A DNA stretch of 64,000 nt, from the NCBI GenBank assembly GCA_003280985.1, contig QCDH01000004.1, forward strand, positions 62,001 through 126,000, given 5' to 3'. The notes beneath the pieces are model-generated. The model ran no database searches. It saw only the letters and a program-made list of their open reading frames with translations, and was not told the DNA's origin. Below are positions 31,327-46,562 of the stretch, piece by piece; positions within the stretch are counted from its first letter, which is position 1; the number at the start of each line of letters is the position of its first letter. Source of the stretch: Prochlorococcus sp. AG-355-A18 (lineage in GTDB: Bacteria; Cyanobacteriota; Cyanobacteriia; PCC-6307; Cyanobiaceae). A program made the position numbers and the translations under genes.

Positions 31327-31398
31327 GCCCTTGTAGCTCAGCGGTAGAGCACTCCCTTGGTAAGGGAGAGGTCTCGGGTTCAAGTCCCGACGAGGGCA
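31327..31398 (+). tRNA. tRNA-Thr (GGT), left boundary of the genomic island
   Basis: A 72-nt tRNA. Acceptor GCCCTTG pairs with CGAGGGC, the anticodon stem is CTCCC/GGGAG with GGT at 31359-31361, and the T-arm TCGGG/CCCGA is intact. Its 3' 48 nt recur in altered form at 46515-46562, marking this gene as the integration site of the island. Confidence 0.97.
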
Positions 31399-31400
31399 TA

Positions 31401-31505
31401 CCCAAAAGCCTAACTACCGCAAGGGTTTTAAAGAATTTAGAGAACAGGGGAAAGTTTGTTAGAGCTGCGGATAAAGCCCTAAAAGAAGCTAGAAAAGGTA
31501 AATAA
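31401..31505 (+). pseudogene. Open frame running out of the tRNA-Thr 3' end, no start codon
   Basis: A frame open from inside the tRNA reads a basic peptide (LKNLENRGKFVRAADK... ending KEARKGK) and stops at 31503-31505. No ATG, GTG or TTG is available. It looks like the C-terminus of a gene cut off at the attachment site. The first 45 nt or so also resemble the sequence after the tRNA fragment at 46563. Confidence 0.35.
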
Positions 31506-31602
31506 TATATGTTAAATAATGCAAACCCCTCCCTCATCTAGGGAGTGGTTAATCTCTTTAATCCTTTGATATGAATTTACTTCTGATCTTTCAGAAGCAA
31601 AA

Positions 31603-31618
31603 TAGTGCGATAACTAGT
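31603..31618 (+). repeat. Left arm of a 16-nt inverted repeat near the island ends
   Basis: TAGTGCGATAACTAGT here is found exactly, on the opposite strand, at 46432-46447. The left arm is 205 nt inside the tRNA-Thr end and the right arm 67 nt before the tRNA fragment. It could be a recombinase or excisionase arm-type site; that is inference. Confidence 0.6.
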
Positions 31619-31624
31619 GCATTA

Positions 31625-31669
31625 TTGACAATTAATCTAAAATAAGGGGCATTAGCTCCTTTTTTTTTT
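31625..31669 (+). repeat. Copy 1 of the recurring intergenic element
   Basis: TTGACA, ATTAATC, TAAAAT (a -10-like hexamer), then a hairpin AGGGGC-ATTA-GCTCCT and a T9 run. The downstream ATG of the cupredoxin gene is 29 nt further. It matches five other copies in the window. Confidence 0.65.
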
Positions 31670-31697
31670 AATATGTTTATATAAATTCCTTAAGTTT

Positions 31698-32102
31698 ATG
31701 CGTTCACTTTTATTATTGGCTTTGCTTTTAGGTTTTTCATTTCCAGCGAATGCAAAGTCAAAGACTTACTTTATTGATGTTTCAGCAGAAAGTATAGAAA
31801 ACTATATTCTTAGTGGTAAAGATAAAAATGGATCTGTAAGTGGGAATGATCCTACAGTTACTGTTAATAAAGGAGATACTATTGTTTTTAATGTTGATGC
31901 GTTTAGTCATCCGTTTTATATAAAGACTGAATTTTCTCGTGGAGGCGGTGATCAAGTAACCAAAGGGACATTATCAGGTACCCCTGGAACTCAAGATGGA
32001 AAACTATCATGGAACACAACGGGTGTATCAGCTGGGAAATACTATTATGTTTGTTCTCCTCATGCACCTTTTGGGATGGGAGGCTCAATTATTGTTGAAT
32101 AA
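31698..32102 (+). CDS. Secreted cupredoxin (type 1 copper) protein
   Basis: A 134-aa protein with an N-terminal signal peptide (hydrophobic 3-14, cleavage near ANA-KS at 19-20). The cupredoxin fold keeps a full blue-copper ligand set: His71 (FSHPFY), Cys119, His122 (CSPHAPF) and Met127 (GMGG). It would act in the periplasm or lumen as an electron carrier or copper binder. It is not the photosynthetic plastocyanin by sequence. It is 4 nt upstream of a PDZ protein gene and downstream of recurring element copy 1. Confidence 0.85.
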   Translation: MRSLLLLALLLGFSFPANAKSKTYFIDVSAESIENYILSGKDKNGSVSGNDPTVTVNKGDTIVFNVDAFSHPFYIKTEFSRGGGDQVTKGTLSGTPGTQDGKLSWNTTGVSAGKYYYVCSPHAPFGMGGSIIVE

Positions 32103-32106
32103 ATAA

Positions 32107-32676
32107 ATGAAACGCTTACTACTCCCATTACTAGCTGCCCTCGCTTTACCAACTGCTGTTAATGCTGAAATATCTGATGAATTACATAAAAAATGTTTAG
32201 AAGCACGAGATTATGCAGGATGTGTGAAAACTAATAAAAAACTATCTCATAAAAAAGATAAGGAAATATCAGGGATTGGAATAAGGCTTTTTCTCAATAG
32301 TGACACTGCTGAATTAACTATTAAATCTGTAATAAATGATTCACCTGCTGCTTCAGCTGACATTAAACCAAATGATGTAATCATAAAAATAGATGGCAAA
32401 TCAACTAAAGGAATGGGTATAAATGAAGCTGTTTCTCTCATAAAAGGACCAAAAGATAAGCCAATTAAATTAGTTTTATCAAGAATTAATGAGGCAGGTA
32501 AAAAGGAAAAAATAAATGTTCGATTAGTAAGAGATACTTTTAAAGTCTCAACAAAAGACTATTTATATGAAGGTGATTTAAGGAGGCAATTAGAGTTTTT
32601 CTTTCCAGAAAATATAAAACAGATTTTTCCAGAAAATGATTCCTCGTCAAAGCTCAAAAAAGGAACTTCAATTTAA
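32107..32676 (+). CDS. Secreted PDZ-domain protein
   Basis: A 189-aa protein with a signal peptide (MKRLLLPLLAALALPTAVNA). One PDZ domain covers about 54-135 (GIRLFLNSDTAELTIKSVI ... SPAASADIKPNDVIIKIDGK ... INEAVSLIKGPKDKPIKLVL). No protease domain is attached, so it may be an adaptor. The start region is the prototype of the ATGAAACGCTTACTACT module repeated in this island. It probably shares a transcript with the cupredoxin gene. Confidence 0.8.
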   Translation: MKRLLLPLLAALALPTAVNAEISDELHKKCLEARDYAGCVKTNKKLSHKKDKEISGIGIRLFLNSDTAELTIKSVINDSPAASADIKPNDVIIKIDGKSTKGMGINEAVSLIKGPKDKPIKLVLSRINEAGKKEKINVRLVRDTFKVSTKDYLYEGDLRRQLEFFFPENIKQIFPENDSSSKLKKGTSI

Positions 32677-32684
32677 ATTTCTGA

Positions 32685-44884: not shown

Positions 44885-44948
44885 CAAATTAATTTTTTTG
44901 CTTATTATTAAAATCAACTTAAGAAAAATTTAAGTAAAAGTTAAGATT

Positions 44949-45188
44949 ATGGCAAAATCAAAAGCAAAGAGAAAAAAAGCTATTTTATCTCTAAAAACTC
45001 CAACTATTCTGGCAGATGGAGTTATCCAGTTCAGTACAATAGTAACTTCTATAACACTTGTTTTTTTAACAGTTGGATTTTATTCAGCTTCTAATCAAGC
45101 TAATAATTTAAATAAAAACTTAGAAAGAATTACTTCACAAAATTCAGTAAATATGAGTGCTGGAAATTATTGCGATTTAGCTCTTTGA
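44949..45188 (+). CDS. Small membrane protein, relative of the 43633 gene
   Basis: A 79-aa protein: Lys/Arg-rich start (MAKSKAKRKKAI), one long hydrophobic span (about 21-44), then an Asn-rich tail. Same layout as the 43633-43866 protein on the other strand. Function unknown. Confidence 0.55.
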   Translation: MAKSKAKRKKAILSLKTPTILADGVIQFSTIVTSITLVFLTVGFYSASNQANNLNKNLERITSQNSVNMSAGNYCDLAL

Positions 45189-45301
45189 TAATTAAACTTT
45201 AGTGCTTAATGCCTTAAAAATTTATATCAAAAAATTTACTTTTGCTATGCCAGAATCAGAGAGATAAAACAATAAAGAAATGCATTAACTCTGCAAGGAA
45301 A

Positions 45302-45502
45302 TTAAAAAAAAGAAAAAATCATCATTTGTTTATATTTTGAGGAACCAATAACTAAATTTAAACTTGATATCTTATGGAATTTTTTATGCGTAAAATTACA
45401 AAATTCATTTTCATCTGAATAGTTAATTAAATCAACTGAATTAATATTTGAATCAAACCACAGGTCATATTCTATGTAATTTGGCTCTGCAAAATAAGTC
45501 AT
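45302..45502 (-). CDS. Small acidic unknown protein, paralogue of the 50278 gene
   Basis: A 66-aa protein starting MTYFAEPNYIEYDLWFDSNI. The protein at 50278 begins MSYFAEPNHIEYDAWFDENI and stays similar to its end (KFHK(I/M)S, NL(V/T)IGSS). Two copies of an unrecognised family in opposite orientation 5 kb apart. Confidence 0.6.
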   Translation of the reverse strand: MTYFAEPNYIEYDLWFDSNINSVDLINYSDENEFCNFTHKKFHKISSLNLVIGSSKYKQMMIFSFF

Positions 45503-45833
45503 ACCAAATTTATTTCAAAAAGAAAAAGCTTCTCTATTTCGTGTGAGGAGAATATAGAAGCTAATTTAAGTTTAAAAGATTTAATGAACTCTTCTTTAAG
45601 AATTAAATAAGATACGAATAAGAAAAAATAAAATATTTTTTTAATTTAAAAAAATGATTAGTTTACTTTTTGCATACTATAAAAAATTGCATCCAAGGCC
45701 ACTGCTTTGCTTTAGAAGAATTGAATGCATAACTAGAATCACATTTTAAAGTTATAAGCAAGTTATGAATTGTTTAAAAGAAAAAAACAAAAAGAAAGGA
45801 ATTTTTGAAAGTTATATTTTTAATAAAAAGTAA
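45503..45833. other. Gene-poor spacer with a hairpin
   Basis: A stem AGCTTCTCTAT / ATATAGAAGCT lies near 45528-45562. Two very short frames (45654-45749, 31 codons; 45765-45833, 22 codons) are present but show no coding character. Nothing else supported. Confidence 0.3.
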
Positions 45834-46178
45834 TTATCTAATTTGTGTTTTTGCTTCTAAACCTATTAATTTCATAAGGACTTTTGCATTACTTGCAACT
45901 GCAGAATATTGTTTTTCTTGCATTGCTTTATGCATAGCAGTTTCTAGAGTACATACTAATTTCGCTATCATTTCAGGGCGATTTAAGTCCCCTTCCTCAA
46001 TATCATCTTTCAGCAAAAGATAAGCATTAGAAGTGATCTGCCTGGCTCTTCTTCTTGAGATTCCATATTTTGCGGCAACAAAGGAAGTAATAGATGAATA
46101 GGCTTGTCCTTCAGCAACTAATTCAGCAGCATGTGCAACTCTTAATTCGGTTTCTTGTTTAGTTGCTCTTTTAGTCAT
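45834..46178 (-). CDS. Helix-turn-helix DNA-binding protein, possibly terminase-small-subunit-like
   Basis: A 114-aa protein. An N-terminal helical HTH region (VAEGQAYSSITSFVAAKYGI then SRRRARQITSNAY, about 22-54) is followed by helices with conserved RPEMIAKLV and EKQYSAVASNAKVLMKLIGLEA. The second half resembles the helical oligomerisation region of phage small terminase subunits. It lies near the right end of the island. The phage link is inference; it could be a general HTH regulator. Confidence 0.55.
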   Translation of the reverse strand: MTKRATKQETELRVAHAAELVAEGQAYSSITSFVAAKYGISRRRARQITSNAYLLLKDDIEEGDLNRPEMIAKLVCTLETAMHKAMQEKQYSAVASNAKVLMKLIGLEAKTQIR

Positions 46179-46318
46179 TACTACTTGGTTTGCCTATCCT
46201 TGCATCTAGCTCTTGCTCAAAAACAGACATAAAGTAGGTTTAACTATTGTATTTATAGCATTAAATATTATAGATTTGTAGAATAAATTCAGTTCTAACA
46301 AGGCGTTATAGCTTAGCT

Positions 46319-46375
46319 TACCCTAATCTTAATTAACATTTTATGTTCGTCTGAATGTAATTAAAGATTAGGGTA
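46319..46375. repeat. Long inverted repeat near the right island end
   Basis: Arms 46319-46335 and 46358-46375 (TACCCTAATCTT-AATTA versus TAATTAAAGATTAGGGTA) form a 17-bp stem with one bulge and a 22-nt loop. It lies 140 nt before the tRNA fragment, without a T-tract, so it is not a plain terminator. Confidence 0.6.
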
Positions 46376-46431
46376 GAACTATTTATACAACTAGAAACTA
46401 GCCCTTCCCTTGAGGGGATTATTCTCTTCGT

Positions 46432-46447
46432 ACTAGTTATCGCACTA
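46432..46447 (-). repeat. Right arm of the 16-nt inverted repeat
   Basis: Exact reverse complement of 31603-31618 (minus strand reads TAGTGCGATAACTAGT). See the left arm. Confidence 0.6.
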
Positions 46448-46514
46448 ATTAGTTAACGCTTAGTAATATTTACCCCTAAACTTCAGTTATACCAATAGTT
46501 TTGAAATACTTTTG

Positions 46515-46562
46515 ATTCCCTTGGTAAGGGAGAGGCCCCGAGTTCAATTCTCGGCGAGGGCA
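46515..46562 (+). repeat. tRNA-Thr 3' fragment (attachment-site remnant)
   Basis: 48 nt matching tRNA-Thr positions 31351-31398 (41 of 48 identical) including the GGT anticodon loop, T-arm and acceptor 3' strand. The T-stem differs from the intact gene at both sides yet still pairs (CCGAG/CTCGG versus TCGGG/CCCGA). The similarity continues about 45 nt further (both have CTACCGCA and AAGAATT). It is the right boundary of the island. Confidence 0.85.

Follow-up and report, generated by a model that had tools for sequence, protein, structure and literature searches.

Why do the two ends of a single genomic island carry different versions of the same tRNA sequence? The question is posed by an island that occupies a tRNA-Thr gene of Prochlorococcus sp. 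AG-355-A18, in a 64,000-nucleotide stretch of contig QCDH01000004.1 (assembly GCA_003280985.1, positions 62,001 to 126,000 of the forward strand) that we refer to as the window and number from its first base. The window lies on contig C4 of a genome of 1.18 Mb in 33 contigs that is 70% complete. An intact tRNA gene stands at the left end of the island and a fragment of a different allele at its right end, and a sequence-only reading of this DNA had proposed that the incoming element brought the fragment with it. Comparison with other genomes of the genus points in the opposite direction: the 3′ half of the tRNA-Thr gene was most likely replaced by one element after another, and the fragment retains an older version of it.

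Two alleles of a tRNA-Thr 3′ half

ARAGORN identifies the tRNA-Thr and tRNA-Tyr genes listed in Table 1 and reports nothing at 46515. The fragment at that position was recovered with a 20-nt pattern of the T arm and acceptor, built from both copies with 3 mismatches allowed, which matches the window twice compared with 0.01 matches expected in shuffles. Aligned base for base, 46515-46562 and 31351-31398 differ at 7 of 48 sites (46516, 46536, 46538, 46541, 46548, 46551 and 46554), the number given by the sequence-only reading. Related loci show that base 46516 belongs to the island right end rather than to the fragment's allele, and so six of the differences are allelic. All six lie in the variable loop or T arm, and none falls in the acceptor strand that pairs with the host's half of the molecule. 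Two T-stem pairs are altered on both sides, T-A to C-G and G-C to A-U (TCGGG/CCCGA in the gene, CCGAG/CTCGG in the fragment), and the compensation described earlier is therefore real. A transferred 3′ half contains both partners of each pair in the variable loop and T arm, and confinement of the allelic differences to these regions is what would be expected if such halves are exchanged.

The gene carries what we call the majority (M) allele; its first 73-74 bases are matched at 100% in many genus genomes among the matches listed from 200 searched. The exact pattern of the fragment's variant (C) allele is found in 11 copies in 10 of 266 genus genomes. Four of these copies are fragments and seven belong to complete tRNA-Thr genes in 7 genomes, which bears out the earlier proposal that the allele has been under tRNA selection. 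Similarity between the two copies in the window extends beyond the tRNA to 46605 (blastn, 80%, E 9e-14) by way of a shared TACCGCA stretch. Joining 31201-31352 to 46517-46900 yields an intact tRNA-Thr(ggt) according to ARAGORN. The locus thus has the layout by which tRNA-site islands are defined, as the sequence-only reading had recognized: foreign DNA flanked by an intact tRNA gene and by a 3′ fragment in the same orientation.

Island junctions across the genus and a proposed order of events

The island right end, 46190-46516 with the tRNA excluded, was used to search the 266 genus genomes. Some match is present in 31 genomes, with 17 covering at least 308 of the 327 bases; junctions were read at 30 loci of the 34 matching places, and the 17 longest matches were counted. 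These comprise ten right ends of type A (98-100% over 327 bp, the window's own included) and seven of type B (about 85% over 308-313 of the 327 bp). All 17 enter the tRNA at the same base, into TCCCTTGG(T/C)AAGGG, which corresponds to the anticodon stem-loop. What follows the switch point depends on the strain. Type A right ends are joined to an exact M half in six cases, a near-M half in two, a decayed half in one (L129) and the C allele in one, the window's own, which is the only strain in which the intact variant allele follows a type A right end. Type B right ends are joined to exact M and near-M halves in three cases each and to C in one. Past the tRNA half, the sequence is of five kinds among type A and of three among type B. 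L073, L074 and L075 are nearly identical to the window up to the switch but not beyond it, and four weaker right ends (L141, L142, L144 and L145) likewise enter an M-type or near-M half. Because one and the same right end meets alleles and downstream sequence that vary with the strain, the half past the switch point can be assigned to the receiving chromosome. A reciprocal arrangement occurs in AG-903-E23 (L085), where a related island has a C gene and a near-M fragment, the reverse of the window; its body matches that of the window in three blocks at 97.7-99.2%, and its right-end block at 91.7%.

In 3′-end integration as the Islander report describes it (PMC4383910), the tRNA fragment of the element makes the gene whole again, and the original piece ends up at the far end of the insertion. 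Since the element supplies the new 3′ half in this geometry, the junction survey identifies the fragment in the window as the displaced, pre-insertion end, and the direction of travel proposed by the sequence-only reading is reversed. We assign a probability of about 0.78 to the account in which an island without an integrase occupies tRNA-Thr, its own M half having rebuilt the gene and the C half having been displaced to the right end. An island of ~15 kb would have entered tRNA-Thr(GGU) by site-specific recombination in the anticodon stem-loop, bringing its own 3′ half (allele M) together with a left arm and thereby rebuilding the gene. The 3′ half that the chromosome had before (allele C) would have been cut off and would now mark the island right end. 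The most likely source of this older half is an earlier element, with a left arm that would persist from 46563 to ~46590, and a later deletion would have fused the scar to the backbone at 46633.

Empty sites are present in four relatives (G091, G052, G097 and G128) that match the upstream flank at 96% over 2,405 bp. In each, tRNA-Thr(M) is followed by a spacer of 361-512 bp and then by the same backbone. Thirty of the fetched loci L083-L122 contain the backbone, and their alignments to it start at 46630-46642; the segment 46630-46720, part of which lies outside any clear gene, is 81-96% conserved in many genus genomes among the matches listed. A small gene lies between the tRNA site and the backbone in 29 of these 30 loci; it is missing in L105, which is G097, and in the window, and its absence from the window fits a deletion ending at 46633.

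The proposal of an earlier occupant draws on the sequence that follows the C allele. TACCGC occurs within 60 bp after 11 of 11 C copies and after 16 of 82 distinct non-C copies (Fisher 2e-7), and, for fragments only, after 4 of 4 C copies and 2 of 24 non-C copies (7e-4), one of the latter two being viral contig L072; the copies are related and the sample is non-random, so these p-values are indicative only. The counts are of distinct copies at loci partly picked by similarity to the window, and they omit other genera (L184-L212), loci L213-L332 and copies too close to a locus end. TACCGC also follows the window's M gene, within the left arm. We read this stretch as the left arm of the attachment site of mobile elements. 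We also considered that TACCGC is plain native downstream sequence and rejected this, since it is absent from the first 60 bases of those short spacers (less than 1 kb) in which these bases were read, and it accompanies all 11 C copies found. In the window the arm after the fragment is succeeded by ~40 bp of native-like downstream sequence, and the tRNAs of G166 and G099 are followed in the same way; a stretch similar to 46563-46632 follows a tRNA-Thr half in G166, G099 and G116 (85-89%, the half included). In our reading the arm and native-like sequence after the window's fragment are the scar of an earlier occupant. The C allele itself is then probably mobile, and the earlier suggestion that the fragment's tRNA end came from elsewhere may hold in a modified form: an earlier element probably delivered the variant half, and the present island did not.

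The alleles may have a longer history. T-stems read from the sequences of 29 loci of other genera, a sample biased because the loci are the best matches to a C gene, are CCGGG/CCCGG in 19, ACGAG/CTCGT in 7 and were not read in 3. A single compensated pair separates CCGGG/CCCGG from M and likewise from C, which has one T-loop change besides, and a third form, TCGAG/CTCGA, occurs in a complete gene in L030. The inner CGAGTTCAATTCTCG is common to the ACGAG genera and the C allele, and for this reason a transfer of the C allele from outside the genus is possible. A phage search with the tRNA gave matches in 62 records. No match covers 80% of the query, and annotated phage tRNA genes make up nearly all of the 20 listed. 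The right-arm pattern has 0 matches in viral_contigs. A loose left-arm pattern matches at least 120 stretches there, and these loci were dropped because the pattern is too short to be meaningful. One viral contig, IMGVR_UViG_3300030450_003438 in IMG/VR, carries an M-type tRNA-Thr 3′ half with TTACCGC after it (L072:9454-9501, minus strand) together with sigma factor, Erf and RusA genes; the half is possibly an attachment site of a virus.

Recombinase, putative attachment arms and alternative accounts

The enzyme that moved the island would be a tyrosine recombinase acting in trans. The sequence-only reading had reported that no integrase remains, and our searches agree: a regular-expression scan of the window for recombinase motifs gave no match, and searches of the whole genome with PF00589 and with a related integrase gave matches only on contigs C6 and C18. 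Tyrosine recombinase open frames of 359-364 codons do occur at this site elsewhere, starting 13-27 bp past tRNA-Thr at L091-L095 (PF00589 was tested on two). The right-hand copy made by these integrase-bearing elements duplicates the entire tRNA-Thr and ~23 bp that include the tRNA-Tyr 3′ end.

Several observations weigh against the account that we prefer. No integrase was found in the island, and the genome, at 70% completeness, offers a 54-amino-acid tail of a related integrase, one other PF00589 gene (on C18) and no more. Since the integrase-bearing elements duplicate the whole tRNA-Thr rather than its 3′ half, their enzyme need not have been the one that moved the island. The decayed half at L129, which follows a type A right end, is nearer to C (6 differences) than to M (8), and C-like halves may thus not be unique to the window's own strain among type A right ends. 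The island's left end is a mosaic that varies from strain to strain, and allele and cargo are therefore not strictly coupled. The arm alone is no proof of an element, because native-like sequence comes after it in G166 and G099. The empty site that the sequence-only reading proposed to look for in relatives exists, but the exact 46632|46633 join is spanned by none of the matches listed, best first, from 200 genomes.

The same mosaic left ends would be compatible with an alternative that we consider unlikely, in which an island with a C half entered a C-type gene that recombination with a common M tRNA subsequently converted to M. The frequency of M suits this scheme, as does the C gene found in four other strains with this right end (G134, G082, G241 and G048). 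The conversion would, however, have had to include the arm, since up to 31443 the sequence after the M gene matches two other M loci, G126 and G173, at 100% (and several further loci among those listed at 97-99%), and the right ends that meet M halves in other strains require no conversion at all.

The right arm bears on a second alternative. Eight right ends that are mutually less than 75% alike over their last 60 bases retain conserved columns, with 46.1 bits of information over positions -60 to -1 compared with a shuffle mean of 22.8 (standard deviation 1.2, largest 27.9 in 2,000 shuffles), in an analysis that omits L012, L047 and L072 and with shuffles that ignore common descent. Information peaks between -80 and -21, counted back from the crossover. 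Away from the crossover, mean pairwise identity declines gradually, from 0.55 (-60 to -1) through 0.46 (-120 to -61) and 0.35 (-180 to -121) to 0.27 (-240 to -181), with no sharp edge. We read the conserved columns as an attachment-site arm, although common descent is compatible with these controls. In the second alternative the island inserted once, in the distant past, and the junctions stem from ordinary homologous recombination between short tRNA repeats rather than from repeated site-specific integration. A shared stretch of 46-48 bp and the stacking of tRNA-Thr copies in several strains (L084, L089/L090 and L102) favor such exchange, and common descent would account for the arm columns too. 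We nevertheless regard it as unlikely, given that every counted right end meets the tRNA at one and the same base and that the arm columns are aligned at a fixed distance in right ends so divergent from each other. The original proposal, in which the variant half travelled with the incoming element and stayed behind at the element's right end and the gene is an untouched local copy, is very improbable: C is indeed rare in the genus and bears the arm in every copy, but 8 of the 10 type A right ends are joined to M or near-M halves with other downstream sequence, and the 3′-end geometry set out in PMC4383910 places the element's half in the gene.

Two details of individual loci may be recorded here. 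One stretch of L102, which like L091-L095 carries whole tRNA-Thr copies, contains genes of both alleles, M and C, and a near-M fragment. The anticodon loop of the fragments at L138 and L144 reads GGC where GGT is otherwise found, a hint that strands are exchanged 3′ of the anticodon.

Cargo, known systems and wider meaning

Table 1. Features of the tRNA-Thr island and its flanks in the window (coordinates in window numbering).
Feature	Position	Strand	Basis
tRNA-Tyr(gta), backbone upstream of the site	31235..31317	+	ARAGORN
tRNA-Thr(ggt), GGU, intact; integration target; majority (M) allele, T-stem TCGGG/CCCGA	31326..31399	+	ARAGORN
3′ half of the gene, presumably supplied by the island	31353..31398	+	junction geometry
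Left arm adjoining the tRNA (AAGCC..TACCGCAAGG)	31399..31443	+	sequence comparison with relatives
Island body, ~15 kb, no integrase found	31444..46516		profile and motif scans
acr3/phn module, 6.9 kb	32896..39835		identical two end points in five fetched genomes
ACR3 arsenite efflux transporter (acr3)	33449..34459	-	TIGR00832, 308.9 bits against cut-off 282.8
phnE-type permease	34505..35320	-	TIGR01097 above cut-off
Second phnE-type permease	35320..36117	-	TIGR01097 above cut-off
phnC-type ATPase	36129..36896	-	TIGR02315 above cut-off
Phosphate/phosphite/phosphonate substrate-binding protein	36928..37926	-	TIGR01098 above cut-off; TIGR03431 PhnD below its cut-off
Crp-type regulator, distantly PtrA-like	38118..38654	+	PF13545; NF053664 52.8 bits, far under cut-off 300
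HNH endonuclease	44157..44558	+	PF01844, PHROG HNH families
Right-end gene, 114 amino acids, predicted helical	45834..46178	-	phrog_34910 (unknown function)
Right arm: conserved block (TTAGTAATAT.., ..ATACCAATA), ends at the crossover	46417..46516	+	column conservation among right ends
Displaced tRNA-Thr 3′ half carrying the variant (C) allele, CCGAG/CTCGG	46517..46562	+	junction comparison, exact pattern
Putative left-arm scar (TAGCCCG..TACCGC) and ~40 bp resembling native downstream sequence, joined directly to backbone	46563..46632	+	sequences of relatives
Conserved backbone right of the site	46633..47197		alignment with relatives

The recognizable cargo of the island is a module for phosphorus uptake and arsenic export, shared by L085, L087, L089, L098 and L099 at 97.3-99.1% with its neighbors shuffled. 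The best relative of its substrate-binding protein in the PDB is 9lf9 (E 3.5e-114). At the left end point of the module, L085 and L098 have ~334 bp inserted beside a 17-bp overlap at 32896-32912. A direct repeat of 191 bp (32708-32898 and 44605-44794, 82%) spans two small membrane-protein-like open reading frames, and a terminator-like repeat, TTGACA..ATCTA.AATA.GG.. followed by a T run, is found at 31621-31664, at 42297-42335 and, on the minus strand, at 49304-49260, at or near some of the module end points. A Glutamine-II riboswitch that scores above its gathering threshold (39469-39524, minus strand) lies upstream of a 56-amino-acid open reading frame at 39281-39451, and the cyanobacterial RNA Yfr8 is found farther along the window at 56477-56702 (255.9 bits).

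Relatives of the right-end gene are present in 68 of 200 genus genomes; the one in G050 (L140) is near a tRNA-Gly-like sequence, identified as tRNA by eye. A single-sequence AlphaFold2 model of the protein reaches a pLDDT of 75. It has no Foldseek match at E 0.001 or better, its Z scores are middling (5.7 or less), and neither Pfam or NCBIfam nor the phage and viral_contigs collections gave a match. We had considered a terminase small subunit and set this candidate aside, as no family, phage or fold match speaks for it and its PHROG is of unknown function.

Set beside known systems, the locus most closely follows the islands that attach at the anticodon of a tRNA gene, a crossover position that is common in the Islander set (2083 of 3919 islands; PMC4383910). 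Like the island in the window, they have a regenerated tRNA at one end, and a displaced 3′ fragment of the same orientation lies at the opposite end. The window's island differs in having no detected integrase and in that its two halves are different compensated alleles. It also resembles the tycheposons of the same genus, as PMC10872708, PMC11389934 and PMC10187409 describe them, in its tRNA border and nutrient cargo (phnD-C-E-E, acr3), and relatives do have integrase-bearing elements at the same tRNA-Thr. Unlike tycheposons, it has no tyrosine recombinase that we could find within the island and ends on the right in half a tRNA rather than a whole one. Phage satellites (PICI, PICMI, VEIME) are likewise small integrative elements without recognized transfer genes, and the small, predicted-helical right-end gene adds to the resemblance; however, no packaging, capsid or replication gene was recognized among the proteins searched, and the right-end gene has no informative match. 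Finally, PMC10119275 describes a phosphonate transporter cluster, phnC2-D2-E2-E3 (Pro-eCAG_012), in Prochlorococcus of low-phosphorus waters. On gene set alone the window's cluster is like it, being accessory, related to phosphorus and composed of one ATPase, one binding protein and two permeases, whereas in the window the cluster sits with acr3 in a tRNA-Thr island.

A tRNA-site island without an integrase is of a known and ordinary kind, and what sets this one apart is the unusual clarity with which its alleles can be followed. A more general proposition, for which we would put the odds somewhat short of even, is that the attachment sites of mobile islands carry tRNA-Thr 3′ halves around within Prochlorococcus as interchangeable alleles, which are kept functional by selection whenever they complete a host gene. 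Differences would then gather only where both pairing partners move, right-hand fragments would form a readable record of earlier occupants, and nutrient islands without an integrase would move by means of a recombinase acting in trans. The site can be viewed as a form of bookkeeping of mobile-element traffic in which the gene represents the latest arrival and the fragment the previous state. These results place the phosphorus-uptake and arsenic-export module on a defined integrative element whose end points can be sought in cells, vesicles or virus particles, and they suggest a route by which tRNA 3′ halves in attachment sites may come to hold compensated variation.

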